A stretch of 64,000 bases of DNA from Amphibalanus amphitrite (taxonomy: Eukaryota; Arthropoda; Thecostraca; Balanomorpha; Balanidae): positions 248,001 to 312,000 of the forward strand of contig NW_024882039.1 in assembly GCF_019059575.1 (NCBI RefSeq), read 5' to 3'. Both the position numbers and the translations under genes were made by a program. Positions 4,581-59,610 of this stretch are shown piece after piece (the first letter of the stretch is position 1; every line of letters begins with the position of its first letter). The notes beneath the pieces are model-generated. The model ran no database searches. It was not told the origin of the DNA and saw only the letters and a program-made list of their open reading frames with translations.

Positions 4581-5406
4581 ATCTGGCGGCCTAGCCGCGT
4601 CATAGTGACGTCACCAGTCGGGGCGGGGCGACTCCCGCAGAGGACCAGTAGCGGCTCGCGGCGGCGGGGTCACGTGCTCGGCGGCACAGCTGCCTCACAG
4701 GGGCGGTCACCGGCCGGGCGGGCGGTCGCCGGCCGCGGACCGCCCAGTCGCCCGCCAGCGGACGCCGGCAGCGGGCGAGCAGCGCTCTGCTGCCCTGTTT
4801 CTAGCAATTTACTTCGTTGTTCTGCTCCACTTTCCACTCGCGCTCGGTTATTCTGTTTCTAGCAATTTATACAGTTCTGCTCCGCTTTCCACTCGCGCTC
4901 GGCTTTTCTATTTCTAATTTACGCATTGGTGTCGGCTGGCGGTGTCGCTCTGTGGGCAGCTGCGGTCCCAGCGAGCTCTAGGGTAGGCTACTGGTCGGAC
5001 CATGCGGCAGGGGGCACGCCCGGAGCTGGCCGAGCTACCCCGCTGTCAGCGTGGTGACTGAACATACATATTCTGTTAAAATGACTGAATAATAATTAGC
5101 TACTTCTAATAAAATTGCACGTTTGGTTCGAGCTGCCTCGAAGGGCGTGCCACGTCACTGGTAGGGGCGAGTTGCAGCCGCCCGGGGCCAGCGTAGGGTG
5201 CGCCTCGGTTGTCCGGTGGATGGTGTCTTCGGTCTGGAGGCGCTGCGCCTCCAGCTCTGAGAGACGCCGCTACAGCTCCCCTCCATCTCCATTCTCCCCT
5301 TCCATCCTGGCTCTCGCTGACGGCGGTGACGTCGCCCTTGCTGGCGGTGACGCTGTGGCGCCTTGGGCAAGCTGTGGCCCGAAGCACCCCGCCAGGCTGA
5401 CTATAC
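4581..5406. other. GC- and CpG-rich stretch with a short tandem duplication
   Basis: Very GC-rich at 4590-4790 and 5150-5400. A block of roughly 57 bp (TGTTTCTAGCAATTTA through CCACTCGCGCTCGG) is repeated in tandem at about 4796-4911, with a third degraded start after it. Overlapping open frames on both strands here are what CpG-rich DNA gives by chance and match nothing. The stretch ends at the insertion site of the Gypsy element. Copy B equivalent: 44982-45807. Confidence 0.5.
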
Positions 5407-5984
5407 TGTTATGTTGTTATGTTATGTCGTTGTTATCTTGTCTCTGTACCTATTCGCTAGTGTATTTGAAATGCCGCAGCTCTGGAGCGGGTCATGTGAC
5501 CACGGCCGACCCCGCGGTGGCGCGGTGGGCGGCGGTCTGCTGTTGTAAATGTCATCACTCTAGTGTGCCTGAAATGCCGCGACTCTAGTCGGGTCACGTG
5601 ACCGCAACTGACCTCAGAGTCGCGCGGCGGGCGGCGGGCAGTCGCGCGCTGGGTGTCCAGCCGTCAGGGTTAGCCGAGCCTCGGGGTACCGAGCTGGGTG
5701 AAGCCCTGCCTTCCTGCCTTGGGACGCCAAGCAGGGTGAGTGTGCCCCGCCCTTAGGAGGAGCGCCGGACGCTACACACACACACACACACACACACTCA
5801 CACCCCTAGGGTCGCGGCAAACGTTCTGAGCTGGTTTTGTGGCCTGTATTGTTGAGCTCGTACCCATATTTTTCTTGTTTTCGTTACGTCATTTTTGCAT
5901 TGTACTTTGCCACAAAAATAAAGGGCTTTGTTTTTGTCCCCAATTCTTTCTCGCGGCTTTGGGTCCGGACAAGCGGACATAACA
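5407..5984 (+). repeat. Gypsy 5' LTR
   Basis: Begins TGTTATG and ends CATAACA, a 7-bp inverted terminus. U3 holds an imperfect repeat of about 106 bp (about 5456 and 5560), each unit containing AAATGCCGC and an E-box. A CA microsatellite lies at about 5774-5797. A polyadenylation signal AATAAA is at 5917-5922. A good splice-donor match (AGG|GTGAGT) occurs at 5733-5741. Confidence 0.95.
5592..5603. promoter_or_regulatory. E-box palindrome GGTCACGTGACC in LTR U3
   Basis: A perfect 12-bp palindrome with a CACGTG core. A one-mismatch version (GGTCATGTGACC) lies at 5490-5501 in the other U3 repeat unit. Both recur in the 3' LTR (12442-12453 for the perfect one). Such sites bind bHLH-leucine-zipper factors of the MITF/TFE/USF type in animals, so they are candidate enhancer sites of the element; this is inferred from the motif only. 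Confidence 0.5.
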
Positions 5985-6000
5985 TTGGTGTCAGAAGTTA
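5985..6000 (+). other. Gypsy primer-binding site
   Basis: TTGGTGTCAGAAGTTA follows the LTR directly. TGGTGTCAGAAGT is the usual form of a tRNA primer site starting with the complement of CCA; it resembles sites assigned to tRNA-Leu, but the exact tRNA cannot be fixed here. A run of A follows at 6000-6010. Confidence 0.7.
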
Positions 6001-6034: not shown

Positions 6035-7198
6035 ATGGTTGTCACTCGCGGCTTAAATGCTAAAGAGGAGCAACCTAACAAAAATGAGACCCCCGATGTA
6101 ATGGCAGGGCAGACCTTGGGTGCTGAGGCAGAACGGACAAAATCCAGTGAGTCGGCCGTTCAGTCAGAGACGTTGAGTTTTCTTCTCCAGGCAGTTGAGG
6201 GCATAAACAAAACTATGTCGGATCAGGCTGCACAAAATGCTGCATTGGCACAGCAGGTGGCTGGAGTGTTCGATCTTCTGGGTGGACAGCTGAAAGAGTC
6301 TGCCAGTGTGGCACCAGAGGCCGCTGGTAACGCAGCGCCTCGTTCCGCTGGCGACGATCGGGTGCCGGTGGTGCAGTCAGTACCTAAGCATTTTGCCAAG
6401 CCCCAGGTCTATGACGGTTCCGTTTCATGGGTCGCGTTTCGGACACAGTTTGAGTCAATTGCCTCCATCCACGGATGGACTGATGAAGAAAAACTGGGAG
6501 AACTGGTGGCCTGCCTCAGAGGTTCTGCTCTTGAGGCATTTGCCCATCTTTCAGTTGATGATCGGAACGATTACGCGCAGCTGATGAGCATGCTGGAACA
6601 GAGATTTGGCTGTGGAAAGCAGGAACCTTGGTTTAGGACTCAGTTCCGTCGCAGACGGCGGAATGCTGGCGAGTCCTTGTCAGCGTTGGCGAGAGATATC
6701 GAGAAGCTTTCCTTTCATGCATATCCCGACGCGTCGCGAGAACTCAGAGAGTCTCTGGCGTGTGATCAATTCCTGGATGCTCTGGGTGACGCGGACTTGC
6801 AGATCATTGTACGGCAGTCTCGGCCAGAGTGTCTCCAGGATGCTGTGACTGGAGCGGTGGAGGTTGAGGCCATCAGAAAATCTGTCAAGGCTGCTCATGC
6901 AGACCCTCATCAGACCACTGGGTTCTCATCACGACAGGCAGAGAGCAATACAGGTGCCACTGCGATGCAAACTGACAACCACAGCGGCATAGAACATCGC
7001 CTACATGCTCTAGAAACCTCACTCAGATCGATTCAGAACCAGCGTAAAACTGCACCTCCGCGTACAAGTGGTCAGGGATGGACAAAAGAGATTGAATGCT
7101 GGCTGTGCGGACAACGTGGCCATGTGAGACGTTTCTGTCCTAGCAGGAATGCATCGCAAACACCTGGCGTCCGTCAGCGTTCGGGAAACGAGGAGTGA
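6035..7198 (+). CDS. gag: Gypsy Gag polyprotein
   Basis: 387 residues from the first ATG after the primer site. Gag forms the particle that packages the element's RNA. Residues about 120-265 form a retrotransposon-Gag capsid-type region (FDGS/W-like start at about 130, then helices with conserved Trp and Leu). One CCHC zinc knuckle, CWLCGQRGHVRRFC, lies at about residues 356-369 and would bind RNA. The N-terminal 90 residues are Gln/Ala-rich and probably helical. The frame ends at TGA 7196-7198, seven bases after a slippery heptamer, and pol continues in the -1 frame. No break is seen. Confidence 0.93.
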   Translation: MVVTRGLNAKEEQPNKNETPDVMAGQTLGAEAERTKSSESAVQSETLSFLLQAVEGINKTMSDQAAQNAALAQQVAGVFDLLGGQLKESASVAPEAAGNAAPRSAGDDRVPVVQSVPKHFAKPQVYDGSVSWVAFRTQFESIASIHGWTDEEKLGELVACLRGSALEAFAHLSVDDRNDYAQLMSMLEQRFGCGKQEPWFRTQFRRRRRNAGESLSALARDIEKLSFHAYPDASRELRESLACDQFLDALGDADLQIIVRQSRPECLQDAVTGAVEVEAIRKSVKAAHADPHQTTGFSSRQAESNTGATAMQTDNHSGIEHRLHALETSLRSIQNQRKTAPPRTSGQGWTKEIECWLCGQRGHVRRFCPSRNASQTPGVRQRSGNEE

Positions 7199-7226
7199 CC
7201 GCCCGCCAGGGACAGCAGACGGTCAC
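7183..7226 (+). promoter_or_regulatory. -1 ribosomal frameshift signal between gag and pol
   Basis: The heptamer GGGAAAC (7183-7189) sits in the gag frame as G GGA AAC, the X XXY YYZ pattern. A 5-base spacer follows, then a 7-bp hairpin: GTGACCG (7195-7201) pairs with CGGTCAC (7220-7226) around an 18-base loop. The gag stop lies within the first stem arm. A -1 slip here leads straight into pol. GGGAAAC is a known retroviral slippery site. Confidence 0.8.
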
Positions 7227-10200
7227 CCCACCAGAATCGTCCCAAAGAGTAGCGGTTCTTCGGAGCACGAAACATCCTGACAGCGTACAGGTAAGGGGTG
7301 AGATCAACGGGAAGTCATGGCCGCTGATTGTTGACTCGGGATCAAACCACACACTGCTCCGTCCAGATGTCTTGGGAGGGCTGATGCTGCCGGAGGTCCC
7401 ACAGGGACTCTGTGACGTCACAGGTCGCCGAACAGCGTTACGTGGTCCGACCACGGTGGAACTGGTGGTCGAAGGACATCGAACGATGCTATCGGTCTAT
7501 GTAGCGGATGAACTTGAAGAACCTTGTATCCTGGGTCTTGACTACCTTCAGTTGAATGGTTGCGAGTTGAATTTCGCCTCAATGCAAATGAAGATTAGCG
7601 GTACTTTCGTTCCCCTGCTTCCGGCTGTGGCGGGAAATACTCATGCTGTGACAAGAGCCTTCCGGGTCAGAGTGGCAGAGACGACCAGACTCAAGCCAGG
7701 CTCAGAAACATTCCTCAGATGCAAGCTGGACGGACCGGGTTTCAATTCTCAGGGGATTGTTGAGTCTGGATTGATTAAGCGGTCAGGGGTTTTGGTTGGC
7801 AGGACCATCGTGGACACCCGGAGTCCGACGGTGCCGGTGATGGTCGCTAACTTGTCCGGGTCACCCGTCCGTTTACAAGCGGGTACTTACGTCGGCACCT
7901 GTGAGCCTGTTGACCCTGTGCCCGCCTTCACGGGAAATGTCAGCACACGGGAGGACGAGCAAGGTGTCCTCCCTGCTCACCTCTCAAACCTGATGGAGCG
8001 CTCCTCCGAGGGCCTGACGCCGGGGGAATGCGCCGAGGTAAGAGACCTACTCATTGCATTTGGAGACGTCTTCTCGGCGGGTGATCGCGATATAGGAAGA
8101 ACATCGCTCGCTGAGCATACAATCTCAACAGGTGACTGTCGACCTATCAAGGTTCCTCCGCGACGATTGCCGATCGGAAAACGGCAAGAGGCGGAGGAAA
8201 TGATTGCGGAAATGAACGAGCAGGGCTTAATCGAAAAGTCGAATAGCCCCTGGTCTTTCCCCCTCGTTCTGGTGAGAAAGAAGGACGGAACCCTTCGTTG
8301 TTGCGTAGACTACCGGCTCTTGAACAATGTCACCGTGAAGGATTCATACCCACTCCCCAGAATTGATGAAACATTGGATGCCCTCTCTGGAGCTCGATGG
8401 TTCTCCACTCTTGATCTTAAATCCGGGTACCATCAGATTGCACTTGCAGATAAGGATAAGCCAAAAACAGCGTTCTCCAGTGGCAGCGGTCTCTCTCTTT
8501 GGCAATGGCGTGTAATGCCGTTCGGGCTGTGCAACGCTCCAGCCACTTTCGAACGCTTGATGGAGGTGGTCTTATCGGGGCTGCATTGGAAAGCTCTTTT
8601 GGTCTATTTGGACGACGTCATTGTGTTCGGAACATCATTTCATGAAGAGATCGAACGTCTGCGTGAGGTCTTCGGGAGGATGCGCTCTGCTGGTCTCAAA
8701 CTGAATCCCAAAAAGTGCCATCTCTTTCGGCGTGAAGTGACCTTCCTGGGACATGTGGTGTCAAGCCAGGGTATCGGCACTGACCCTGCCAAAACAGAGA
8801 CAGTTGACAGTTGGCCTGTTCCAAAGAACAAGAAGGAGCTGCGCAGCTTCCTCGGTCTATGCACATATTATCGGAAATTCGTCAGGAATTTCGCCTCGAT
8901 CGCCGCTCCACTTCACTGGCTAACAAGAGATGATGTTGAGTATGTCTGGGACGAAAGCTGTGTCACCGCTTTTAAACTCCTGAAGAGCGCTTTAACACGG
9001 TCTCCCATCCTGGCCTACCCGGAGGCTGGAGGAGAGTTCATTCTCGATACCGATGCTAGCAGCTGTGGCATCGGGGCCGTGCTATCTCAGTTGCAGGATG
9101 GAGTTGAACGTGTGGTAGCGTACTACAGCCGTTCATTGTCTTCCCCCGAGCGGAATTACTGTGCCACACGCCGAGAACTCTTGGCAGTGGTAGACGCTAT
9201 CCGACATTTTCACCATTTCCTCTATGGCACTGCTTTCCGCGTAAGAACCGATCATGCTGCCCTCAAATGGCTTCGCAATCTCAAAGATCCTGAGGGGCAG
9301 CTGGCAAGGTGGCTGACCAGACTGGAGCAGTATCAATTCACGGTGCAGCACCGTCCAGGTATACAACATTCCAACGCCGACTGCCTGAGTCGCCGCCCTT
9401 GTGACACCAAATGCAAACACTGCCACAAGAAGGAAATGCTTTCTGGTTCACACTGCCGGGCTGCTGGATCAGCAACCGTGCAGAATGGCGCGACGTCGTG
9501 TGATGCTGCGGGTCTCGTCAACGACCGTTCAAGCTCGTTGGCGATGGATGTCCGAACCGCTCAAAGAAGGGACAGTGACTTGGCCCCGCTGATCACGTGG
9601 ATGGAGCGCGGCGAGCGACCAACATGGGACGAGGTGAAAGGTGTCAGCGCCACAACCAAGCGATACTGGGCACAATGGGATCTACTTCGCTTGAGGGACG
9701 GAGTCCTTATGCGAGTGTGGGAAACTCCCAGCGGACAGAGCAGCCAGTTGCTGACGATTGCGCCACGAAGTCAGAGGGAAGACATCCTGGTCGAATTTCA
9801 TGGGTCTGTCTCGAGTGGTCATTTTGGGATTAAGAAAACTCTGCTCCGTCTCCGCAAGCGCTTCTACTGGATCAGTATGCGCCGTGACGTTGTCGAGTGG
9901 TGTAGAGTCTGCACAACATGCGCCGCAAAGAAAGGCCCCCACCGCACATCTCGTGCCCCTCTCCAGATCATGAACGTCGGGTCGCCCATGGAACGGTTGG
10001 CTATCGACATTGCTGGACCCCTTCCGATTTCCACAGCAGGAAATCGCTTCATCCTGGTAGTGATGGACTATTTTACTAAATGGCCTGAGGCGTATGCCAT
10101 CCCCAACCAAGAGGCAACTACGATAGCTCAAGTATTGGTTAACGAGTTTTTCTCGCGGTTCGGTGTTCCCTATGAGATCCATTCCGACCAAGGCCGCAAT

Positions 10201-11175
10201 TTTGAAAGCAACGTCTTCAAGGAGTGCTGCAAGATACTCGGTATACGGAAGACGAGAACCACACCAATGCATCCAGAGTCGGATGGGATGGTGGAACGTT
10301 TTAATCGGACTATGGGACAAGAACTCGCGAAGAGGTGCAAAAACGAGCAGGAGGACTGGGACAGGCACCTACCTCTACTTCTCATGGCATACCGCTCAGC
10401 GGAACACGAGTCCACTGGGTATACCCCATCTCACTTGATGACTGGCAGGGAAATGCGGCTTCCGATCGACCTCATGATGGAGCGTCCACCTACTGACGAA
10501 GCCTGCCCAACCGTCACCGACTTTGCACGGGACATCCGCTATCGGCTGGATTTGTCACACGCCCATGTTCGCGAGAACCTCAAACTTTCATCAGATGCAA
10601 TGAAGCTGCGAACAGACGCTCGGGCATCCACTGAGTTGTTGAAGCGTGGCGACCAAGTGTGGCTTCACAATCCACGACGAAAAAAAGGTTTAAGCCCGAA
10701 ACTCATGTCTCCATGGGACGGACCGTATATGATCATCGATCGGCTCTCGGATGTCACGTACAGAATACAGCGAGCGACCGGTGGCCGCATGAAGGTCATC
10801 CATTACAACAGGCTGTGGAAGTATGAAGCTGCATCCAACTTTTCTTGGCACGGCGAGCCCTCGGCGACATGCCCTCGGGAGACGGAGAACAGTGTGAGTG
10901 CTGATGTTCCGGTGGAGAACAATTCCGATTCGGCCCTCCGCGAGCCCTCGGCGACATGCCCTCGGGAGACGGAGAACAGTGTGAGTGCTGATGTTCCGGT
11001 GGAGAACAATGCCGATTCTTCCTTGGTTGAGGCTGCAAAGGAGGGGAGATGTGCTTCAGACTCAGCAGACCCTAGACAGAAGGGAAGCACTCCTAGTCGA
11101 CGATACGAACTACGTAGAGACCGTCGACCACCGTCTCGGTTCAATGACTTCGTCACCTTCGTTTGCAACGTGTGA
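7195..11175 (+). CDS. pol: Gypsy Pol polyprotein (protease, RT, RNase H, integrase)
   Basis: 1327-codon frame in -1 relative to gag. It has no ATG at its start (the first codon at 7195 is GTG), so it is most likely made as a Gag-Pol fusion by frameshifting. Domains by residue from 7195: aspartic protease with DSG at about 44-50; RT from about 320 to 500 with YLDD at about 471; RNase H from about 615 (DTDAS) through TDH at about 685; integrase HHCC zinc finger at about 865-910, core residues Asp in AIDIAGP (about 935), Asp in HSDQG (about 996) and Glu in MVERFN (about 1033); a GPY/F-type module at about 1165-1195. All catalytic residues are present. The C-terminus holds a 29-residue tandem duplication. 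The frame ends at TGA 11173-11175. Confidence 0.96.
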   Translation: MTARQGQQTVTPPESSQRVAVLRSTKHPDSVQVRGEINGKSWPLIVDSGSNHTLLRPDVLGGLMLPEVPQGLCDVTGRRTALRGPTTVELVVEGHRTMLSVYVADELEEPCILGLDYLQLNGCELNFASMQMKISGTFVPLLPAVAGNTHAVTRAFRVRVAETTRLKPGSETFLRCKLDGPGFNSQGIVESGLIKRSGVLVGRTIVDTRSPTVPVMVANLSGSPVRLQAGTYVGTCEPVDPVPAFTGNVSTREDEQGVLPAHLSNLMERSSEGLTPGECAEVRDLLIAFGDVFSAGDRDIGRTSLAEHTISTGDCRPIKVPPRRLPIGKRQEAEEMIAEMNEQGLIEKSNSPWSFPLVLVRKKDGTLRCCVDYRLLNNVTVKDSYPLPRIDETLDALSGARWFSTLDLKSGYHQIALADKDKPKTAFSSGSGLSLWQWRVMPFGLCNAPATFERLMEVVLSGLHWKALLVYLDDVIVFGTSFHEEIERLREVFGRMRSAGLKLNPKKCHLFRREVTFLGHVVSSQGIGTDPAKTETVDSWPVPKNKKELRSFLGLCTYYRKFVRNFASIAAPLHWLTRDDVEYVWDESCVTAFKLLKSALTRSPILAYPEAGGEFILDTDASSCGIGAVLSQLQDGVERVVAYYSRSLSSPERNYCATRRELLAVVDAIRHFHHFLYGTAFRVRTDHAALKWLRNLKDPEGQLARWLTRLEQYQFTVQHRPGIQHSNADCLSRRPCDTKCKHCHKKEMLSGSHCRAAGSATVQNGATSCDAAGLVNDRSSSLAMDVRTAQRRDSDLAPLITWMERGERPTWDEVKGVSATTKRYWAQWDLLRLRDGVLMRVWETPSGQSSQLLTIAPRSQREDILVEFHGSVSSGHFGIKKTLLRLRKRFYWISMRRDVVEWCRVCTTCAAKKGPHRTSRAPLQIMNVGSPMERLAIDIAGPLPISTAGNRFILVVMDYFTKWPEAYAIPNQEATTIAQVLVNEFFSRFGVPYEIHSDQGRNFESNVFKECCKILGIRKTRTTPMHPESDGMVERFNRTMGQELAKRCKNEQEDWDRHLPLLLMAYRSAEHESTGYTPSHLMTGREMRLPIDLMMERPPTDEACPTVTDFARDIRYRLDLSHAHVRENLKLSSDAMKLRTDARASTELLKRGDQVWLHNPRRKKGLSPKLMSPWDGPYMIIDRLSDVTYRIQRATGGRMKVIHYNRLWKYEAASNFSWHGEPSATCPRETENSVSADVPVENNSDSALREPSATCPRETENSVSADVPVENNADSSLVEAAKEGRCASDSADPRQKGSTPSRRYELRRDRRPPSRFNDFVTFVCNV
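10855..11028 (+). repeat. 87-bp tandem duplication inside pol C-terminus
   Basis: Two adjacent copies of an 87-bp unit start at 10855 and 10942 (GAGCCCTCGGCGACATGCCC...). The unit is a multiple of three, so it adds 29 residues without shifting frame. It lies after the integrase GPY/F module in an acidic tail. The copies are nearly identical, implying a recent duplication. Confidence 0.85.
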
Positions 11176-11503
11176 ATACGCGGCGGGAACCGCCCATCTA
11201 TTAACTTGGTGTAGATCGTGTACATGTGTTTATCGGCGTGTCGGTGTTTCTCGGTGTTTATCGGCGGCGGGACCCGCCCATTTATTAACTTGGTGTATGA
11301 TCGTGTGTGTGTGTTTATCATTATCCGTTTTCTATGTCTCTTTCATGTGTCCGTGGCAACGGGTTCCGTTCCAGTAAGACGAATACTGCATGAAACCTTG
11401 GTACCATTTACTTTGCACCTTATGTTTTTTTCGCGGTAAAAAAAAAAAAAATCGCACGCAACTCCCATTTGCTCCTTACCCAGACTCCGTGTTTTTCAGA
11501 CTG
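11176..11503 (+). other. Spacer between pol and esterase ORF with direct repeats and splice acceptor
   Basis: Two diverged direct repeats of about 85 bp start at about 11181 and 11266 (GGCGGGAACCGCCCAT / GGCGGGACCCGCCCAT, then TTAACTTGGTGTA). At 11491-11499 a pyrimidine run ends in CAG (GTTTTTCAG), four bases before the ATG of the esterase ORF. This is a good splice-acceptor match and suggests a spliced subgenomic mRNA, with a possible donor in the LTR at 5735/5736. Confidence 0.5.
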
Positions 11504-12199
11504 ATGGCGGACTGCGAACCGGGCGTCATCCATCTGGATGACTCCGATGTGGACGAGTTGCGTCCTGATGTCGGGGAAGAGTCGAGCAAACAAGAAGTGC
11601 ACCTGCTTCTGGGCGACTCAATCCCGCATCGAATGGGGGAGCGGCTGGATGTCAGCCCTCCCGACATTTTGCTGAACTTTAGCAGCCCTGGAAACACGTG
11701 GGCCAGGCTTGCTACTGACCAGGCACGCCAGGTCGCTGAGTGGCAGGAGGCGGCAAGAGCTTTCGGGTGCACTTTGGGGACATGCATCGTATGGATGACG
11801 GGAAACGATGTGTACCCCCGCGCCCCTGGCGACCCGTCCCATGTCATCCGGCTGGGCGATTTCAAGGAAAATGTGGACGAGGTTCTCAGCTTTCTATGGG
11901 TGGCGGCACGAAACATCCTGGTACTGGGGCCGCTGCCCCGATACCGTCATGATGCTGGAAAATGCTGGGTCAACTGCCCAGCATTCGCGGCTCAGCAGGC
12001 CGCCAAGCGGGTATGTGATGAGTACCTGGGGGTGGAGTTCCTGCCACTTGGGAGGACCTTCACCAAGAACTACAAGAAGTGGCATCTGGTGGGAGAGGAC
12101 AGCCGGCGATTCTTCGCCGCTGACGGCGTACACCTGTCCGCAGCCGGGGAGGAGGCAGTATTGCAGCGCGTCCCTCAGTGGCTGCAGTGGCATGAGTGA
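11504..12199 (+). CDS. SGNH/GDSL-type hydrolase ORF carried by the Gypsy element
   Basis: 231 residues from the ATG at 11504, chosen because it follows a splice-acceptor-like CAG and gives a compact domain; an in-frame ATG at 11390 would add a basic, low-complexity leader. SGNH blocks seen: block I LLLGDSIPHR with nucleophile Ser39; block II-like Gly at SPGNTW (about 63); block III TGND with Asn101; block V DGVHLS with Asp207 and His210. All four SGNH residues are therefore present, predicting an esterase/lipase-like enzyme. No signal peptide or membrane segment is visible, so it is not a typical Env. It sits exactly where env lies in Gypsy errantiviruses. SGNH esterases are known in ORF1 of CR1/L2-type LINEs. 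The role here is unknown; membrane or lipid modification is a guess. Confidence 0.85.
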   Translation: MADCEPGVIHLDDSDVDELRPDVGEESSKQEVHLLLGDSIPHRMGERLDVSPPDILLNFSSPGNTWARLATDQARQVAEWQEAARAFGCTLGTCIVWMTGNDVYPRAPGDPSHVIRLGDFKENVDEVLSFLWVAARNILVLGPLPRYRHDAGKCWVNCPAFAAQQAAKRVCDEYLGVEFLPLGRTFTKNYKKWHLVGEDSRRFFAADGVHLSAAGEEAVLQRVPQWLQWHE

Positions 12200-12243: not shown

Positions 12244-12256
12244 AAGGGGGAAGCAG
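12244..12256 (+). other. Gypsy polypurine tract
   Basis: AAGGGGGAAGCAG directly precedes the 3' LTR and follows a T-run, the usual form of a plus-strand primer site. Confidence 0.8.
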
Positions 12257-12832
12257 TGTTATGTTGTTATGTTATGTCGTTGTTATCTTGTCTCTGTACC
12301 TATTCGCTAGTGTATTTGAAATGCCGCAGCTCTGGAGCGGGTCATGTGACCACGGCCGACCCCGCGGTGGCGCGGTGGGCGGCGGTCTGCTGTTGTAAAT
12401 GTCATCACTCTAGTGTGCCTGAAATGCCGCGACTCTAGTCGGGTCACGTGACCGCAACTGACCTCAGAGTCGCGCGGCGGGCGGCGGGCAGTCGCGCGCT
12501 GGGTGTCCAGCCGTCAGGGTTAGCCGAGCCTCGGGGTACCGAGCTGGGTGAAGCCCTGCCTTCCTGCCTTGGGACGCCAAGCAGGGTGAGTGTGCCCCGC
12601 CCTTAGGAGGAGCGCCGGACGCTACACACACACACACACACACACTCACACCCCTAGGGTCGCGGCAAACGTTCTGAGCTGGTTTTGTGGCCTGTATTGT
12701 TGAGCTCGTACCCATATTTTTCTTGTTTTCGTTACGTCATTTTTGCATTGTACTTTGCCACAAAAATAAAGGGCTTTGTTTTTGTCCCCAATTCTTTCTC
12801 GCGGCTTTGGGTCCGGACAAGCGGACATAACA
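12257..12832 (+). repeat. Gypsy 3' LTR
   Basis: Matches the 5' LTR throughout by eye, with two bases fewer in the CA microsatellite. AATAAA is at 12765-12770. Target duplication ATAC follows at 12833-12836. Confidence 0.95.
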
Positions 12833-12836
12833 ATAC

Positions 12837-15800
12837 CGTCAGTCGTCACAGACCAGTGGCCACTGCCGTGTAACACCGCCAAAGAAGTCGCTTTCATGCG
12901 GTTGGCACATTGGTGGTTGAGCTCTGCGATTTTGCCGGCGGAACACTTGCACCGTAGACCCAGCTGCTGCTACGGTGCACGATCGTCATTGTAGCGCTGG
13001 ATCGGATCGCCTCCACGCAGCTGGAATAGAAGCAAACATTAAAACTGCATCCAGAATAATATGCGAGCAACTCAAGATCTATGAGGCTCTTGAGGTTCGG
13101 CAGCTGCGTGATCCAGTTGTGCATTGCCGCTCTGATAAGGAAGCTCGTCACGTTGGTGAGGTAGATCTGCCATCGCCTCCTCGTATTCGGCCCACCCCTG
13201 AGCCTCTGGGGATCCGATAGGAGTGATATGGCTATCTCCGGAGAAGACAGTAGAGCTTCCGCCGCTGTCTGGTGGTGTGTCCATCGACCAGCGGCAGCGA
13301 TGAGGTCCGGATGAGTTTGGCGTCCACTCGGCCCGGAAGTACCGGCCGAAGGCCCTGGTCTGCTGGCTTTTAATGAGGTCGTCAGCGAAGCTGGCCATCG
13401 CGCGGTGAGCCTTCTCCAGCGCCTCCTCTTCGCTGGCGACCCCGGCTAGCTGCCACCCGGAGGAGGTGATGAAGGCCTCCAGCTGGGCGGCCATCCGTTC
13501 ACGTTCGTCTCGTGCCTGAAATTTTTTTGGAAGACAACCGAAGTCTTTACGTCGCATGTTAAAGGCTTCATGGTGGCACAGGGTAGTGATAAAGGAAAAC
13601 CAAACCCAGCAATAAACCCATAACATTGTTGAAATCGTTAAAACGCATTGTACCAAAATATGATAAAAAGGAAGAACATTTAACATTGAATAGCTCAATG
13701 ATATTCGCTCTTAAGCAAAATGGCGTCATACAAATTGCGAAAGATGACAAGTAGTTTACAATTATTGTCATAAACCTGAAGTAGCGTTAGCCGCTTAGCA
13801 TGAGCGGTAAGTAGAAGCAAACGTTAACAAAGAACGTAACATACGAATCGAAGAGAAAATTAGATAACGCATCTCAAGCTCGGGCGTGATTTTTTACTGA
13901 GGTCGTATATGCATCCGAATAAACACTAACAATCGCGGCATTAGCCTCTGTAATCTGCCGAGCGAACAGCATGTAAAAATACGGTACCTTTGAGGTTCAG
14001 CCTGCTGCACCAAGCCAGAACTACGTGGAAGGCGCAGAGCGGCTTCGTTGGACGAGGCTAGTCGGCGTCCGTGACGCGTAGCCACGCGGTGTAGAAGGCG
14101 TCTGCGCAGTCCGACATGGAAGTCCTGGGCGCTGGGAACTCAAGGTTGGCGCCCAGGACTGCCTGTTTGAGGCCCTTCAGGAACGCGCTGATGACATTGG
14201 CGTTCTCCCTTGACGAGAGGAGCCACGCCACCGGACAGCCCTGGCCCAGGTTGTCCTCCACTAGGACCAATGTGAGGATGAGTCCCGAACCTGTGCGAAA
14301 ATTGATGACATCAGTTGGCATCAAGAAAAGGAAAGTATCCCTATTTAATCAAAGTGTTAGATTTAAGAGGCTTGCAAAAAAAAAAAAAAATAATAAAGGA
14401 AAAGCGCAAAGCGTGCATATCTTGTATGATATGTCTCAACTTCCAGAAGTGTCTACACTGGGTGGAATAGAGGACAGCCTGCACTCATTGCATACCCACA
14501 TAGCCACGCTCAGATAGTGCTGCAAAGCGTCCTCGGAATTCGGATAATTTCTGGCGTTTTGGATGAAACCATGCATCACATCCTTCACACATGGTGCAGT
14601 CGTCTTTGTCTGTGAGCTAGAGACCACAAACCTGTTCCTCTCCTTTCCATATGTATCTGCCCTTCCTTTTACTGATAACTGGCTATCTTTTACTGAAAAT
14701 CCTGACTTATTTCCTTTGGTCTTTCACCACCTCACCTTCGCTCCTTTTTTCCTCCTTTTTATCCTCACCACGCTGTTTGCCACCTTCCGCGTTCATTCCT
14801 GGCGCCGATTTCGTCGAAGCCGCAGCAGAACAGAGTCCGATTCGTGTCAATCTCCAATAACGGAACAGTTGAGTATTTTATTATTGTCCAATCCTTTAAA
14901 GGGACCCTCCCACCTTAACATTAGATTTGAGTTGAGATAGCCAAAATGGGGTCCCTGGCTCACAATTACCGGTTTCGGCACTCACAACATCGAGAAATGC
15001 CTTAAATCGGAAATATTGAATTTCAAAATTGCAGCATTTTGATTCAGAGGGGCTAATGCTTAGGAATACCCCTCTGAATGTGTGACGTCAGCGCAAATAT
15101 CTAACGATTTTTAAATGTTTGACTAAAACGTTTTTTAGCACGCGGTGGTATATGCTATTTGCGCGCAACATCTGCCGCAAACGCCGCACTTCTAAAATAA
15201 AGTCGCTAGAAACAGCGGAGGTCCCAAAAAAGTAAACAAAAGTAAAAGTCTAATATCTTGAAAACCGGTGAATATTTTTTGGTGAAATTTGGTAGATATT
15301 CGTTTTCGCTCTTTCTGAACCGAGCGACATCACTTTCATGCCAATTCATAAACTTTTTTGAAGGTGGGAGGGTCCCTTTAAAGCTCACGTTCACTATTTG
15401 TTTTCCAACGGATTTTCTCCGGCATCTTTATCTTCCTTTTTGTATCTTGTTTTCTTTTCTGTACCGGCAGTACGACCTCGACCTCGACAATCTCGACGCT
15501 CAACGGGTCAGGACGTGAGCGGAATGGCGCGCGTCCGGACTGGTCGGGAGCAAGGTTAGGAGTAAAAATCAATCTTATACCGGAGCTACGGATAAAACTG
15601 AAGACAGCTTCGAAAAGAGAAATGCCTAGTTGCCGATCACAGCCCCTAGCTGCCGTATTGTGAGTACTGTCCATGCCCACGACGTTTTTGCCGAGGTTCG
15701 ACAGCATTTCCAGCTGGGAGGGATTGATTCGCCCAGCCGCTGGCCAGGTCGGCGCTAGACGATAGCGAGTAGCTCCAGCGTGTGGCACTGGAACTTCTTC

Positions 15801-19113: not shown

Positions 19114-22100
19114 CTATGTTCCTTCTTGACGGTCTGGGGGGCGTATGTTTTTGCGAGACCAGGGGTTATACCGCAGGTGATCAGCCTGACTAACCTCTCG
19201 GCCTGCTCGACAATTTCGCCAATCTTCCTCCAGCCGTGTAAGATCACTCTGGTCGATCCCATTCTCTTCAGAAGGAGTCGCCAACGTCCCTGGCTTTGCC
19301 GGCAGTGTAACAGGTGAACGTGCACCGTTGTTGCTGCTCTGTGAGGCATTACTCACGGAACGAATGGCAGATTCGTTGCTGAGAGACTGTGAATCGACGC
19401 AGGTGTCGATTTGATCGTCTTCCAAGTTTTGAAGACGATCGATGTTAGGGTGCTCTTTTGTACTTGTGCACTGCCTTGGTGCACGTTTCCAAAATCTGTG
19501 AGCACTTTGGTTCATGTGAAAACGACAGGAGTCTACATACCTTTTGACATCGGAGTATATGTTCCTCCAGTAAAATTGAATGCTAATTTTGGAAAGAATG
19601 TTTCTGAATAACTTTTGTCCTGACGAAAAAGTGTCATGGACTTTCTCAAGCATCAGTTTTTTCATTGAATTTGGAACTACAAGTTGATCTATAAACTGAC
19701 GAATCCTGGAATTTTGTTTGGCTACATGGTAAAGTAGGCCATCTGAACCTAAGAAAAAGTTGGAAAGAGATTCATTCAGCTTCAGATCAGGGCCTTTAGC
19801 TTTCGGTTTCACGAGGCGATCAATGATTGGCATCAAATCTGGGTCTTTTCGCTGTTCAGCTTTGATTTTCTCTTTTGTCCATCCTGCGGTTTCTGCACAG
19901 ACATGGCCAAGAAAGTCTGCTTTGTTTTGTGTATCTAATTCGGCACTAGACGAATGATCAGTTGTAACATTCAAAATACCTGGTAGATAAGTGACATCAA
20001 AATCATACTCTGATAGTTTTACTAACCATTTCTTTAAACGACCGCTAAGATGAGTTGACTCGAAAATACATTTTAATGGTGAATGATCTGTCATGACATG
20101 AGTGACATGACCTAAAAGATAAGATCGCAAATGATCAAAAGACCATGAAATTGCGAGGCATTTCTTTTCTGAAGTAGAATAATTTCTTTCAGCTTTGCTA
20201 AGCTGTCGACTAATAAAAGCAATTGGGTGAAATTCATCACCATATTTTTGTTGTTCAAGTACGCCACTAATGGCGAAATCACTTGTATGTGTAAATAGGT
20301 AGAAGTCTTTTTCGAAATTTGGAAATTTTAATAAAGCGCATTTTCGTAGTGACCTTTTTAACGATGAGAATGCTTTTTCGCACTCTTTTGACCAAATAAA
20401 ATCAACATTTTTCTTTGTCAAATGAATTAACGGAGCAGTAAGCTCAGCCAGTTTTGGAATGTGTCTGCGATAACAGTTCGCAAACCGAATAAAAATACGA
20501 ACATCTTTCGCTGTTTCTGGTACAGGAAAATCTTGTACCGCTTGTAATTTGGATGCATCTGGACGAATTCCATGTTTGTCAAGTATGAAACCCAGATACT
20601 TTACCTGAGATTTCATAAATTCACACTTTTCGGGGTTGATCACAAGATGAATTTCTTCTAAACGAGAACATATATTGTCGAGTTTTTCTAAATGCCTGTC
20701 GTACGTTTTGCTAGCGATAAGAATATTGTCAACATATAAAAATGCATCTATGCCTTGAAGACTACTGAGTGCAATTTGCAACCCTCTGTTGAGAACGGAG
20801 GAACTTGAACGAAGACCCATTGGTTTATCGTTCATATGATAATTGTCGTAATCCTTTGCAAAATCCGTAGAATGACTTGAAGATTCATTCAAAGAAATTT
20901 GGTGGAATGTACTAAGGAAATCCAAGGTAGAGAAAACTTCACAGTCAGAAAGTTGATCTTTTACCTGTGATGTAAATGAACGAGAAAACTTGTCATCCTT
21001 GATTTTGGAGTTGAGAAGTCGCAAATCTGAAACGAGGCGATATTGACCATTTGATTTCTTGATAAGAATGATTGGAGAGTTATATGGTGAAACTAATGGT
21101 TTGATAACTCTGGCTGTTACCATGAGTTTTATATCTTCCTTAGTTATCTCCCGATGAGCAATTGGGAGACTTGTTCGTTGATCAGCCGGAGTGTGGTCTG
21201 TAAATCCATTGTGATTTTTGTAAACCTCTGTGTGTTTTGTGACAGAGATATCGTTTCCAAAAACAGGCTGATGTTTGTCTAAGAGTTCTCGGAGTTTAAA
21301 TCGAAAGTGTACTGGGACATGTTTCAAATCAATGTCACTGACAGACCTGTGCCCTGACGTCCTCGGGATAGAGGTCGTCGGATTGTTTATCTCTGTTCTG
21401 CGTCCGGTGTCTGACGCAGCCAAGTCCGGCTCAGCGACCGTTTTTTGTTGTGGCGAGACGCTGGCGGGATTGGGAACAGACGGCGCTGTTTGACAGGCAC
21501 TGACTGACCCATGGTACTGAGCAAGGTCAGCGTCCTGTCTGATGGGATGGGGTCGGTCTGTGACCTGACTGAAGGGGTACTTTTTGGTCGGATGGGCTTG
21601 TGCGATTCTCTGATTTTTTCTCAAAATGATTGGGTTACTTGAAGCATTAATCACGCGTACAAGCGTGCCTGAACTTTCCAAGAAATTGATAGAACGGGCA
21701 ATCTGAATGTCTCGAATACTTTGATCACAATGCGTTTGAATTAGGTATGGAAATTCATTTGGTTGTAGGAATTGTGGTAATTTTACGCGTACAAATTTTT
21801 CGCCGTAACCAAAAATTTCTACTGTTTGTTTCACGAACAATGGATATGACTTTTCGTCATCAATAGTTAATGCATGTTTTTCTGCGGTTGTGAACATGTC
21901 TACCGTTTTATCAGGATAAACGATTTGATCGACAGATTTTTCATTGTCCTTTGTTGATAAAAGAAAACGTACTCTTTTACGTCTTTTGGGACTCAGACGT
22001 TTTGAGCGTCTTTCGACTACATTGGAAGAAAGAATTGGTTTTAGAAAGTTCACCGTACGACTCGATGGATTGTAAATCAATTTGTGAGCAATGATAAAAT

Positions 22101-22389
22101 CGATTCCGAGAATGATATCGCATTTGAATGGCAAACTTTTTGCTGTAATGAAAAATTTGTGTTGAACTGTTTGACCAAGAATGCTAATATTCAGATTGAC
22201 TTCACCTACAACGTCAATAGGATTTCCAGTAACATCAAGAATAGAGACACTGGGAGGTTCGTAAGCTACTTTTAAACCAGATTTTTGCAGACATTTTTCT
22301 GAAACTAAAGAGACACTACTTCCACTATCATAAAGAGCTGAACAAGTTTGACCCGAAATTTTGACGTCACGTAAAACCGGGGGATGTGC
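19114..22389 (-). pseudogene. Gypsy-like pol relic, copy A
   Basis: Minus-strand frame of over 1000 residues, open from 22389 down to 19114. It starts after an in-frame TAA (22390-22392) that copy B lacks. Domains: aspartic protease (DSGSS at about 22330), RT, RNase H, and the integrase HHCC zinc finger only. The RT motif reads YVDN instead of YVDD, and the first RNase H motif reads THTSD instead of TDASD, so both enzymes should be dead. The integrase catalytic core is absent: the frame passes from the zinc finger region (HRFWKRAPRQ) into an acidic, Ser-rich tail. Two extra residues-worth of difference from copies B and C is a 3-bp insertion at about 20250. No 3' LTR is found below 19114. Confidence 0.9.
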
Positions 22390-30256: not shown

Positions 30257-30577
30257 TGTTTCGCTCGCGAAAGTTACGTTTGATTAGTTGAGCGTCAGAC
30301 ACTGTGTGCGATTTAGATATTCGTTTTGGGCAGTGTTTTAGAGGCGCGATTGCGTCAGCTGGCCGACGCGTGGCAGGTATACTAAAACCTTGGTTGTTTT
30401 GTTTTTAAAAAAAGGTGAGCCACGCCCCGCGCTGAATGTGTGAAGATATAGAGGGTACGGCTGCTATAGTAATTTAAACCCACGGTCAGATGTGGTAATT
30501 TCATTTTTGTTGTGTTGGTTGAAAACTGTAGAAGCCGTCAGTCATGATTGCAAGCTGAATACATGGCCAGCGATACA
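30257..30577 (+). repeat. BEL 5' LTR
   Basis: Begins TGTTTCGCTCGCGAAAG and ends GCGATACA; TG...CA bounded, 321 bp. Contains TCGCGA near the start and a stretch GCTATAGTAATTTAAA (30463-30478) complementary to the primer site. No AATAAA is evident. Confidence 0.95.
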
Positions 30578-30593
30578 TTTAAATTACTATAGC
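30578..30593 (+). promoter_or_regulatory. BEL primer-binding site, self-complementary to the LTR
   Basis: TTTAAATTACTATAGC starts at the first base after the LTR and is the exact reverse complement of LTR bases 30463-30478 (repeated at 36625-36640). It does not begin with TGG, so it is not an ordinary tRNA primer site. Orientation is right for priming: the 3' end of the LTR-derived RNA would pair with 30578 and be extended into the LTR. Self-priming of this kind is established for Tf1; here it is an inference. Confidence 0.7.
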
Positions 30594-30938
30594 CATTCGG
30601 TTTGAAGTTTGAGCAGCCAGTTCAAGCTACAGTTTGGTTTGTTGAAAGCTCTGACTTGATTTTCATGAAAGGCCGTGTTGTTTTGATTGCCTAGTCAAGC
30701 TGGCAATGAGTTGTGTCAAGACAGATGTTGTGATGAGTGATACGGCAAAGTTGGCTCGCTGCCAAGACAAGGTGAATGCCTCTCAAAAAAGTGCAAGATG
30801 TGGAGAAAAGGTTCTAATGTTGATGTTTAATCTAATGGTGTTCTGTTCCTGAAAAAGTATATCCTTGTGGTGTCACATTTTATTTGTCATTGAAAGTTTG
30901 CTCTGGTAAAGCTCGGTTCACGTGTTGAAGTCTCTAAA

Positions 30939-33900
30939 ATGGAGAAGGAAAAGCTGAAGTTAAGGACGTCAGCAAAGAGAGCTTTTACTAGGCTAAACAA
31001 TGACATCACAGAGACTATTGAGCAGGAAGGTGATTTTGAACTCATTACAGAGATGTTTCAAAATCTGAAGGAAGCATGGGCTAAAGTGCAGGAACAGCAT
31101 GAACAGTATGTGAGCTTTCAAGACGAAGAGGATGATGACTGGCTTGAGGACGTGTACCAAAAGTTCAGTGAAACTCAGAAGAAGTTTTTCTGTGCTAAGA
31201 AGGAAGAAGAAGGGAAGAAGGCAGAGGCAGTGAGGAAGGATCAGAGAAGCAAAATCCAGCTGAAGCCTGTTGATTTACCAAAGTTCAGTGGAAAAGTGAG
31301 AGATTACCCTCGCTTCAAAGCTGACTTCTTGAAGTATGTGCTTCCACACACAGATGAAGAAGCAGCCGCATTCACACTGCGCATGTGTCTCTCTGAAGAT
31401 GCACGGGACAAGGTGTCACTGTTAGATGAAGTGAAGGACATGATGGACAAACTCGATGAGGAATATGGGGATCCATCTGCACTGACCGATCTGGTGATGA
31501 ATGAGATCAAGAGGTTTGACATGAAAGGAAGCAGGAAGCTGATTGATTTCATCGATGTTGTTGAGAAGGCGTACTTTGATCTCAAGAATCTTAACATGGA
31601 GAAAGAGATATCGAACACGACCATTGTCAGCATCATTGAGATGAAGCTACCAGAAGATGTGAGAAGAAAATGGGCTGAACGAGTGAACATGGATGACAGT
31701 CCTGTAGACAAATCTGACAAATTCCCTCACTTGTTAAAGTACCTGTTAGAAGTCAGAAGAACAATGAAGTATCTGTCTGCAGATCTGAGGGATCCTGTCC
31801 CAGCTGCCAGGAAAGGTCAGGTTCACAACGTGATGTCCAGCAATGTGACGGCAAAACCAAGAGCGACAAAACAAATGTGTTGGTTACATAACAGCAGCAC
31901 TCACTCCATTGAGGAATGCAAGGTGTTCTTGAACATGAACATGGAGAGAAAACAGCAGGTGGTGACAGAAAATGGAGTGTGTCGAAGCTGCTTGAAGCGT
32001 GGCCACAGGCAGCAGGAATGCAGAATCAGGAAGAGGTGTGAGGTCAGGAACTGTGCAGGAAACCACCACTCTCTTCTGCACCTGGAGAAGAAAGCCACAG
32101 GAGCTGCCTCAACTGTGATGGTGGCTACAGATGCAAGTGAGGACATTTGTTTACTACAGATCATGGAAGTGGAAAGTGTCCAGAGGACAAAGCTGAGTGT
32201 TCTATGGGATGGGGGAGCCACTATCAGCCTCATCCGGAATGAGCTTGCTGAAGAGCTCGGACTGGTTGGGACGCCCTGTCAGCTCTCTGTTATGGGTGTC
32301 GGCTGTGTCCGGAAAGTGATTCCCTCTAAGAAGTACATCCTTCCTCTGGTGGACACACAGGGAGAAGTGGTTGAGCTTGTGGTGTATGGGATTGAAAAAA
32401 TCTCTGGTGCCATAGACCCAGTGGACGTGAGCAGGATCAAGGAGCTGTCTGATCTTCACATCAGGAGACCGACTGGAGAAGTGGATGTGCTGATCGGATA
32501 TGAATATGCTGGATATCATCCAACAGTTCAGGATTCAGTGGGACATCTGCTGGTGCTGGAAAGCAGGTTCGGGAGGTGCCTCGGAGGATCTCATCCGAAG
32601 CTGAGAGATCTAACAAGAAGAGTGCAACCGCAGGGTCAAATTCTGCACATACGAGCAGATGAGGTAACCTTGCAGGACTTCTTCAGCACTGAGTCCCTGG
32701 GAGTGCAGTGTTCACCAAGGTGTGGAGGATGCCGCTGTGGACGTTGCCCGCCTGGAGGAAAGGACTACACTCTCAAAGAAGAGCGCGAGCTGAAACTCAT
32801 CGAAGTGGGTCTGAGCTACGATCCAGAACAGAAATGCTGGGTAGCCAAATACCCCTGGATCAAGGATCCAAAGCAGTTGCCAGACAACAGGATGACGGCA
32901 GAAGCCATCATGAAGTCAACTGAAAAGCGACTGAAGAGGAAGCCAAAGCATGCCAACGTGTATCAAGCTCAGATCGAAGACATGGTACAGAGAGGAGCTG
33001 CGAGAAAGTTGACTGAAGAAGAGCTGAGAAGCTACAACGGTCCAGTCCACTACGTCAGCCATCACGAGGTCATCAAACCTGACTCCAAGTCGACGCCATG
33101 TCGCATTGTCTTCAACGCCTCAGCAAACTACAAGGGTCATGTTCTTAATGACTACTGGGCGAAGGGACCTGATCTGCTGAACAACCTTCTTGGAGTACTG
33201 CTCCGGTTTAGAGAGAGATACGTCGGAGTGACAGGGGACGTTAAGAAGATGTACCACTCGGTAAGCATCTCGACCCTTGATCAACATATGCACAGGTTCC
33301 TGTGGAGAGACCTGGAAGAGCGTCGCAGCCCTGACACCTATGTGATGACGGCAGTCTCGTTCGGCGACAAGCCAGCTGGAACGATCGCCACACTGGCGTT
33401 ACGGAAGACTGCTGTGATGGGTCAGGATGAGTTCCCTGAGGCTGCGAAAGCCATCATCCGAAACACGTACATGGACGACGTACTCGTCAGCGTCGACTCA
33501 AGGAAAGAAGCTGTCAAGTTCACAAAAGAAGTTGAAGAGCTGCTGGACGCAGGAGGGTTCAAGATGAAGAGCTGGATCGTCACAGAGAATCCGAATCAAG
33601 AAGAGAGAGACGGCGCAAGCGAAGACGTCCAGAGGAAAAGACGAGACCGCCAGCAAGAAGAGCTGAGTGCAGACACTAAGGCGGCGAAGTGTGCAAACGA
33701 AGAGCTTGAGAGGACAAACGAATCTGAAGCGAAGAGAAGTCAAGCCAAACAGGAAGAAACCCCAAAGAGTGGTCAACCGAGAAGCGAAGAGGGCACACAT
33801 GTGAAAAGGGATGAAGAAGAGAAGGGGCCAAGCGAGAAAGGCCGCAGAAGAGAAGATGCAGCGAACCGAGGAAGTCCTGAAGAGAAGTCTGGGCAAGGGA

Positions 33901-36374: not shown

Positions 36375-36404
36375 GTGTATCGGCGAACTGGTATGTAGAG
36401 AACC

Positions 36405-36418
36405 AGCGGGCGGCGGAG
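36405..36418 (+). other. BEL polypurine-like tract
   Basis: AGCGGGCGGCGGAG directly before the 3' LTR is purine-rich but includes cytosines; it is the likely plus-strand primer by position. Confidence 0.45.
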
Positions 36419-36739
36419 TGTTTCGCTCGCGAAAGTTACGTTTGATTAGTTGAGCGTCAGACACTGTGTGCGATTTAGCTATTCGTTTTGGGCAGTGTTT
36501 TAGAGGCGCGATTGCGTCAGCTGGCCGACGCGTGGCAGGTATACTAAAACCTTGGTTGTTTTGTTTTTAAAAAAAGGTGAGCCACGCCCCGCGCTGAATG
36601 TGTGAAGATATAGAGGGTACGGCTGCTATAGTAATTTAAACCCACGGTCAGATGTGGTAATTTCATTTTTGTTGTGTTGGTTGAAAACTGTAGAAGCCGT
36701 CAGTCATGATTGCAAGCTGAATACATGGCCAGCGATACA
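36419..36739 (+). repeat. BEL 3' LTR
   Basis: 321 bp, one substitution relative to the 5' LTR. Followed by target duplication GTGTC. Confidence 0.95.
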
Positions 36740-45807: not shown

Positions 45808-47865
45808 CGTCAGTCGTCACAGACCAGTGGCCACTGCCGTGTAACACCGCCAAAGAAGTCGCTTTCATGCGGTTGGCACATTGGTGGTTGAGCTCTGCGA
45901 TTTTGCCGGCGGAACACTTGCACCGTAGACCCAGCTGCTGCTACGGTGCACGATCGTCATTGTAGCGCTGGATCGGATCGCCTCCACGCAGCTGGAATAG
46001 AAGCAAACATTAAAACTGCATCCAGAATAATATGCGAGCAACTCAAGATCTATGAGGCTCTTGAGGTTCGGCAGCTGCGTGATCCAGTTGTGCATTGCCG
46101 CTCTGATAAGGAAGCTCGTCACGTTGGTGAGGTAGATCTGCCATCGCCTCCTCGTATTCGGCCCACCCCTGAGCCTCTGGGGATCCGATAGGAGTGATAT
46201 GGCTATCTCCGGAGAAGACAGTAGAGCTTCCGCCGCTGTCTGGTGGTGTGTCCATCGACCAGCGGCAGCGATGAGGTCCGGATGAGTTTGGCGTCCACTC
46301 GGCCCGGAAGTACCGGCCGAAGGCCCTGGTCTGCTGGCTTTTAATGAGGTCGTCAGCGAAGCTGGCCATCGCGCGGTGAGCCTTCTCCAGCGCCTCCTCT
46401 TCGCTGGCGACCCCGGCTAGCTGCCACCCGGAGGAGGTGATGAAGGCCTCCAGCTGGGCGGCCATCCGTTCACGTTCGTCTCGTGCCTGAAATTTTTTTG
46501 GAAGACAACCGAAGTCTTTACGTCGCATGTTAAAGGCTTCATGGTGGCACAGGGTAGTGATAAAGGAAAACCAAACCCAGCAATAAACCCATAACATTGT
46601 TGAAATCGTTAAAACGCATTGTACCAAAATATGATAAAAAGGAAGAACATTTAACATTGAATAGCTCAATGATATTCGCTCTTAAGCAAAATGGCGTCAT
46701 ACAAATTGCGAAAGATGACAAGTAGTTTACAATTATTGTCATAAACCTGAAGTAGCGTTAGCCGCTTAGCATGAGCGGTAAGTAGAAGCAAACGTTAACA
46801 AAGAACGTAACATACGAATCGAAGAGAAAATTAGATAACGCATCTCAAGCTCGGGCGTGATTTTTTACTGAGGTCGTATATGCATCCGAATAAACACTAA
46901 CAATCGCGGCATTAGCCTCTGTAATCTGCCGAGCGAACAGCATGTAAAAATACGGTACCTTTGAGGTTCAGCCTGCTGCACCAAGCCAGAACTACGTGGA
47001 AGGCGCAGAGCGGCTTCGTTGGACGAGGCTAGTCGGCGTCCGTGACGCGTAGCCACGCGGTGTAGAAGGCGTCTGCGCAGTCCGACATGGAAGTCCTGGG
47101 CGCTGGGAACTCAAGGTTGGCGCCCAGGACTGCCTGTTTGAGGCCCTTCAGGAACGCGCTGATGACATTGGCGTTCTCCCTTGACGAGAGGAGCCACGCC
47201 ACCGGACAGCCCTGGCCCAGGTTGTCCTCCACTAGGACCAATGTGAGGATGAGTCCCGAACCTGTGCGAAAATTGATGACATCAGTTGGCATCGAGAAAA
47301 GGAAAGTATCCCTATTTAATCAAAGTGTTAGATTTAAGAGGCTTGCAAAAAAAAAATAATAAAGGAAAAGCGCAAAGCGTGCATATCTTGTATGATATGT
47401 CTCAACTTCCAGAAGTGTCTACACTGGGTGGAATAGAGGACAGCCTGCACTCATTGCATACCCACATAGCCACGCTCAGATAGTGCTGCAAAGCGTCCTC
47501 GGAATTCGGATAATTTCTGGCGTTTTGGATGAAACCATGCATCACATCCTTCACACATGGTGCAGTCGTCTTTGTCTGTGAGCTAGAGACCACAAACCTG
47601 TTCCTCTCCTTTCCATATGTATCTGCCCTTCCTTTTACTGATAACTGGCTATCTTTTACTGAAAATCCTGACTTCTTTCCTTTGGTCTTTCACCACCTCA
47701 CCTTCGCTCCTTTTTTCCTCCTTTTTATCCTCACCACGCTGTTTGCCACCTTCCGCGTTCATACCGGGCGCCGATTTCGTCGAAGCCGCAGCAGAACAGA
47801 GTCCGATTCGTGTCAATCTCCAATAACGGAACAGTTGAGTATTTTATTATTGTCCAATCCTTTAA

Positions 47866-59604: not shown

Positions 59605-59610
59605 CAATCA
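59602..59610 (+). promoter_or_regulatory. Candidate stop-codon readthrough site between LINE ORF1 and ORF2
   Basis: TGA CAA TCA matches the stop-CARYYA context known from tobamovirus-type readthrough. The frame after it stays open through all of ORF2 and encodes endonuclease residues upstream of the first ORF2 ATG (59713). An ATG overlapping the stop (59601-59603) is in another frame that closes after about 24 codons, so simple ATGA reinitiation does not serve ORF2. Confidence 0.65.

Follow-up and report, generated by a model that had tools for sequence, protein, structure and literature searches.

The window analysed here, a stretch of 64,000 nucleotides from the genome of Amphibalanus amphitrite, contains a long terminal repeat (LTR) retrotransposon with a third open reading frame (ORF3) behind pol, and the locus raises the question of what this frame encodes and how it might serve the element. 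The reading that we prefer, with a probability of roughly 0.55, is that ORF3 is a kept accessory gene of LTR elements and that its product is an intracellular, catalytically equipped GDSL/SGNH hydrolase, made from a spliced RNA and acting on acyl esters at membranes. The element consists of the following features:

5403..5406, left target-site duplication ATAC, read from the sequence
5407..5984, + strand, 5′ LTR of 578 bp, TG...CA
5986..5999, + strand, primer-binding-site-like sequence TGGTGTCAGAAGTT, one base past the 5′ LTR
6035..7198, + strand, gag, 387 aa, with Pfam matches to PNMA (E 5e-5) and a CCHC knuckle (E 0.006), both under the cut-off
7195..11175, + strand, pol, 1326 aa, with aspartic protease (just over the cut-off), reverse transcriptase (RT), RNase H and integrase (Pfam)
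11484..11499, + strand, 3′ splice-site-like sequence (pyrimidine-rich tract and CAG), 4 bases ahead of the ORF3 ATG
11504..12199, + strand, ORF3, 231 aa, predicted GDSL/SGNH hydrolase with Ser39, Asn101, Asp207 and His210 (profile and alignment)
12244..12256, + strand, polypurine tract AAGGGGGAAGCAG, the 13 bases before the LTR, with one C within
12257..12832, + strand, 3′ LTR of 576 bp
12833..12836, right target-site duplication ATAC, read from the sequence

The two LTRs differ by no substitution, the 3′ copy being one AC unit shorter. The order protease, RT, RNase H and integrase, together with the LTRs, the primer-binding site, the polypurine tract and the short target duplication, places the element in Ty3/Gypsy, an assignment made from domain order and element ends rather than from a tree of reference elements. 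No dUTPase family was among the Pfam matches of pol at E ≤ 1. When used as a query against the genome (an 807.55-Mb assembly of 2644 contigs), the 5′ LTR matched six places, its own two included; the family comprises one complete copy, one more LTR (93%) and, beyond these, three LTR matches that are partial or diverged. A tandem duplication lies close to the end of pol (10853-11018, 87 bases apart).

ORF3 is intact from ATG to stop, and the surrounding frame is open from 11378. Its best Pfam match was Lipase_GDSL_2 (E 2.3e-5, 25.4 bits, under the cut-off of 32.9), followed by Lipase_GDSL (E 2.7e-4, 21.6 bits, under the cut-off of 23.6). Relatives from the same genome passed these cut-offs, L030 (39.6 bits) and L029 (34.1 bits) for the former and L049 (24.8 bits) for the latter, and 13 of the 16 rows of an alignment of related proteins (A2) matched Lipase_GDSL_2 at E ≤ 0.01. 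Matches to PDB profiles were weak: 2hsj, a putative platelet-activating-factor protein (0.019), and 4c1b, an ORF1-encoded protein (E 0.03) which we take to be the ZfL2-1 esterase. NCBIfam profiles gave no match at E ≤ 0.1, and a search for relatives in viral and bacterial/archaeal contigs found none. Ser39 (in GDS), Asn101 (in TGND) and Asp207 and His210 (both in DGVHL) are invariant across the 16 rows of A2. By profile and motifs, ORF3 is a predicted GDSL/SGNH hydrolase. The preliminary description, which had reported an intact 231-residue SGNH frame after pol within the LTRs of a young Ty3/Gypsy element, is borne out with regard to the frame, the near-identical LTRs and the positions of all four residues; an SGNH/GDSL profile search, which it had proposed as a check, recognised the family with the window protein under the cut-off and two relatives over it. 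Ahead of the SGNH domain, the N-terminal columns of A2 also show, by eye, a short motif that is acidic and ends hydrophobically; it recurs among both Gypsy and BEL types and may serve in binding.

Among 29 SGNH domains, hand-picked from loci fetched out of the source genome, S39, G63 and H210 were present in 29, G100 and N101 in 28 and D207 in 27. The exceptions are L035 and L021, in which Asp207 is missing at the aligned place and an Asp stands nearby within a longer DRLG.H stretch, L036, in which the aligned Gly100 differs, and L050, in which the aligned Asn101 differs. Such deviations would suit a non-enzymatic scaffold, whose SGNH fold would serve for binding RNA, lipid or Gag irrespective of catalysis, as in Oskar, whose SGNH-type domain is named non-catalytic in PMC3905857, whereas the retention of Ser39, Gly63 and His210 in every one of the 29 domains speaks for a working enzyme, and we give the scaffold a minor share of the probability.

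How ORF3 is expressed is constrained by its location. It begins 328 bases past the pol stop at 11175, in a frame different from that of pol and upstream of the 3′ LTR, and simple read-through can therefore not produce it. In errantiviruses and other env-bearing Ty3/Gypsy elements, a third ORF likewise lies behind pol and is probably expressed from a spliced message. A pyrimidine-rich tract followed by YAG was found 0-12 bases upstream of the ORF3 ATG in eight of ten groups at a pyrimidine share of at least 0.6, compared with 89 of 1386 ATGs (6%), and in six of ten compared with 22 of 1386 at a share of at least 0.7. The 1386 background ATGs came from the same sequences and include the ten ORF3 starts; L035, whose start is unclear, was left unscored. 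This enrichment is descriptive, since the cut-offs were chosen after viewing the sequences. The 3′ splice-site-like sequence was missing before the ORF3 ATG in two of the ten groups (family B, defined below, and L030). GTRAGT-like sites in or near the LTRs were considered as 5′ splice donors and not used, as they occur elsewhere too and are unspecific. From the 3′ splice-site-like sequence, we infer that ORF3 would most likely be translated from a spliced subgenomic RNA, like retroviral env.

The env position claimed in the preliminary description is correct by place; the protein itself carries no clear envelope sign, as judged by hydropathy, N-terminus and N-glycosylation sequons. Its highest hydropathy over 19 residues is 1.54 and its N-terminus is acidic, and it differs from the third ORF products of errantiviruses in lacking clear membrane-glycoprotein features. 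Among eight related proteins, two exceed 1.6, that of family E (1.93) and L032 (1.81), both inside the SGNH domain, and the number of sequons is 0-3 per protein. We think it improbable that the ORF3 product is a conventional envelope. An SGNH-type domain is also present in viral haemagglutinin-esterases, and ORF3 might be an extracellular entry or release factor, an envelope substitute akin to the SGNH-type esterases with which some RNA viruses destroy receptors. The place behind a 3′ splice-site-like sequence and the two relatives above 1.6 are compatible with such a factor, the low hydropathy maximum and acidic N-terminus of the window protein and the few sequons across the eight proteins count against it, and we consider it unlikely. 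Accessory genes of mobile elements often serve anti-defence, and for this general reason ORF3 might instead help the element to evade silencing by deacylating or deacetylating a host factor, or else RNA or protein, which we regard as quite unlikely. As a kept accessory enzyme, on the other hand, the ORF3 protein would stay inside the cell, and its most likely substrate would be an acyl ester, in a lipid or an acylated protein, at sites of contact between membranes and particles or RNPs. Cleavage there would serve assembly, transport or release, as has been proposed for the ZfL2-1 LINE esterase; a lipid role for a transposon SGNH esterase is raised in PMC3905857.

ORF3 is not confined to the window element. 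A search of the genome scored 150 matches of 312 candidates at 28-100% identity, and the matched part contained no stop in 141 of these 150, although best-scoring matches favour intact ones. In 15 of 20 fetched loci of 10 kb, pol precedes ORF3 on the same strand (L012-L020, L022-L024 and L026-L028; the pol matches of L019 and L020 fall into two pieces), and gag is present as well in 14 of them, L012 being the exception; no pol was seen in the 10 kb of L009, L010, L011, L021 and L025. Including the window, the resulting 16 elements form six Gypsy families with ORF3 in the same position: A (the window), B (L012-15), C (L016-20 and L024), D (L022-23), E (L026-27) and F (L028). A family LTR pair with 99.0-100% identity flanks 14 of the 16, the exceptions being L012, whose repeat is not the B-type LTR, and L024, for which none was shown. 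A 4-bp duplication was found at four of six loci checked at their edges (L013, L016, L023 and L027), as well as at L029 and the window element; the edges of L028 and L012 had none. In one B-type copy, L015, the middle part of pol is gone, and ORF3 and identical LTRs remain. Among eight further loci, ORF3 stands behind more distant Gypsy pol (28-49% identity) in L030, L034, L035 and L036 and behind rearranged gag and pol pieces in L033, and no recognised pol precedes it in L029 and L031.

A profile search of proteins found 74 among the best 8000 candidates, and the six named ones are from Amphibalanus amphitrite. The top matches in the respective lists for ORF3 (P0002, 93%) and for the integrase region (P0077, 96%) are both listed on a 5632-base contig outside this assembly. 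Two further pairings, 7011 (P0009/P0092) and 6938 (P0018/P0121), were set aside, because chance pairing is possible among the 74 and 120 listed rows. Pieces of 82-93% identity on C556 and C1335 were considered as exons of a host gene, and this was rejected after DNA comparison, which identified them as pieces of a window-type element inside another repeat; they run from ORF3 residue 111 onward, once into the LTR. Such a piece, with ORF3 from residue 111, lies within another repeat at four places (L009, L010, L021 and L025).

To relate ORF3 to the element types of the whole genome, we compared integrase coordinates with those of 164 ORF3 places (148 of the 150 scored rows, leaving out two second pieces, and 16 further places), counting an SGNH match as linked when it lay at most 3.5 kb downstream of an integrase on the same strand. 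Near Gypsy integrases (at least 54% identity) had SGNH downstream in 31 of 43 rows, which correspond to 30 distinct ORF3 places, with C1338 split into two rows. Further Gypsy integrase rows had it in 7 of 28 at 43-46% identity and in 0 of 51 at 38-43% (7 of 79 together). BEL integrases had it in 16 of the 84 rows used, one of them doubtful at 3.4 kb, and most were without; these 84 were taken from 123 rows, leaving out 36 rows below 50% identity and 3 second pieces. By this method, 111 of the 164 ORF3 places received no superfamily label. The ORF3 counts are lower bounds and missing ones are no proof of absence, because the searches score best candidates only.

The remaining 12 of the 43 near integrase rows had no ORF3 match within 3.5 kb, and nine of these belong to a sister family, G (54-55%). 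In one copy of this family, L037, the end of pol is present and no SGNH frame was found in the next 3.7 kb. The preliminary description had named, as evidence against its proposal, other copies without the ORF or with a decayed one alongside conserved gag-pol: ORF3 is indeed kept where gag-pol is young, but these 12 rows, family G foremost, do lack a match. In the integrase tree, one family-G row falls outside the six SGNH families (87/96), so that a gain after G and a loss in G both fit. Behind the pol of this SGNH-less family, L037 contains low-complexity lysine-rich frames (1312-1873, − strand).

ORF3 relatives also occur in a second LTR superfamily. L058 and L059 carry BEL/Pao pol with Peptidase_A17, RT and integrase (Pfam), and by coordinates the SGNH match starts about 300 bases after pol in the former and 200 bases in the latter. 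L032 has a BEL-type gag-protease frame followed by SGNH; neither RT nor integrase was matched in it, and there is hardly space for them. Its ends are a 404-bp repeat, 100% identical and cut by the locus edge. A small element, L029, is 2814 bp long and flanked by TTAT on both sides. Its 245-bp LTRs differ by one substitution, and inside it lie a short stretch with CCHC and a single long ORF, which is intact and includes SGNH. Eighteen rows match similarly to L029 (query 2-237 or 2-236, 39-40%, no stop), and of these we read L029 alone. Its ORF is identical to the Amphibalanus amphitrite protein P0011 (FJT64_016629) in 373 of 375 aligned residues, besides a 28-residue gap in a repeated stretch. 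A protein of this species annotated as SGNH hydrolase-type esterase may therefore be a retroelement gene, P0011 being the one case seen. A BEL/Pao-like element is also present in the window itself (30257-36718, ORF 30939-36374); its terminal repeat is 100% identical over at least 300 bp, and the element has no space in which an ORF3 could lie.

In an SGNH tree of 29 rows, five rows labelled BEL and five unlabelled rows form one group (98/98), which adjoins the Gypsy rows L038, L040, L046 and L047 (92/94); L040 and L046 owe their label to near-identity to L038 and L047. On this tree, which is unrooted and has 10 of 25 inner branches open and long branches for L029 and L036, Gypsy and BEL labels change once, and all three labels together three times. 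The simplest reading would be one transfer of ORF3 between the Gypsy and BEL/Pao superfamilies; alternatively, there may have been two captures from related sources. Across the six families, ORF3 and integrase identities are not significantly correlated (Spearman 0.29, p 0.30; E and F are closest in both), and ORF3 may thus have been swapped. We tentatively propose, and would not back at even odds, that SGNH is a transferable module of LTR elements, which passed at least once between Gypsy and BEL/Pao, is kept by selection and is useful enough for the 2.8-kb element to persist with it as the sole long intact ORF. On this view, the enzyme might by itself assist the RNA from which it is made.

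Comparable genes are known from other retroelements. The Vesta elements of bdelloid rotifers are counted as Ty3/Gypsy. The preliminary description knew of no LTR lineage with an SGNH enzyme as third ORF, which the published account of Vesta contradicts: these LTR elements have PR-RT-RH-IN order and a GDSL esterase ORF3, which is common to Penelope-like Athena elements (PMC5408684). The authors' suggestion there is help in membrane crossing or an auxiliary role. As Vesta is described there, the window element resembles it in gag, PR-RT-RH-IN, a GDSL/SGNH ORF3 behind pol with the invariant residues kept, young LTRs, and an ORF type common to different retroelement classes. By the same description (PMC5408684), it differs in belonging to another phylum, in the dUTPase that all Vesta members have between PR and RT and that Pfam did not show in the window pol, in ORF length (0.7 kb for the window type, as against GDSL clones of 1.3 kb in bdelloids) and in the sharing, with Athena there and with BEL/Pao here. 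The esterase of the CR1/L2 LINE ORF1 (ZfL2-1) is likewise a retrotransposon-encoded SGNH hydrolase, to which the weak 4c1b match points, but there it takes a gag-like pre-pol place in a non-LTR element and is joined to a coiled coil, whereas here it stands behind integrase in LTR elements (PMC3905857; for LINE esterase ORF1 see also PMC4120745 and PMC5478143). Ngaro-like DIRS elements have an additional SGNH ORF after the recombinase, but are tyrosine-recombinase elements with split direct repeats and without LTR or integrase (PMC9210276), and PMC9025612 cites an SGNH gene of fish that a Helitron has mobilised. No arthropod or BEL/Pao case of an SGNH ORF3 was found within one open-access collection. 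Our results suggest that enzymatic ORF3s are no peculiarity of bdelloids, as young elements from two LTR superfamilies carry one in an arthropod genome, and the intact copies make it testable why retrotransposons carry lipolytic esterases.

Selection on ORF3 was estimated by Nei-Gojobori counting. dN/dS was 0.34 for L049-L050 (dS 0.35), 0.23 for L049-L055 and 0.24 for L050-L055 (dS about 1.0), and 0.23 for L051-L055 (dS 1.8); L049 and L055 lie behind BEL integrase, and L050 and L051 group with them in the SGNH tree. Higher ratios were obtained for family F versus the partial L052 (0.75) and for L030-L034 (0.74), and within families, where copies differ by few changes, the ratios range from 0 to 2.3. 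Selection is supported for the ORF3 type through four BEL-type or near-BEL pairs and not for the window's own family with its one complete copy, so that the earlier suggestion of an ORF still under selection holds for the type alone. It is highly improbable that ORF3 is a passenger, derived from a host esterase gene or part of one that a single element captured and carried unused: the single complete copy of the window family, the near-neutral changes within families and the bdelloid ORF3s, which in PMC5408684 have no significant departure from neutrality within a genome, would fit it, but it is opposed by the constant position and shared catalytic residues across six Gypsy families, the relatives in BEL/Pao and the small LTR element, the predominance of stop-free matches (even if best-scoring ones favour intact frames) and the low dN/dS of the four pairs. 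With relatives in two LTR superfamilies, ORF3 looks like a kept accessory gene.

The window contains further repeats besides these elements. At 57592-62460 there is a LINE-like ORF pair, which by eye has a PHD-finger-like stretch in the first ORF and an endonuclease and RT in the second. Another Gypsy-type pol occurs in three stretches on the − strand with frames of differing length (19114-22134, 53904-57209 and 62546-63886), and a 208-aa frame is present twice as a repeat, at 13072-13698 and at 46043-46669 (− strand).
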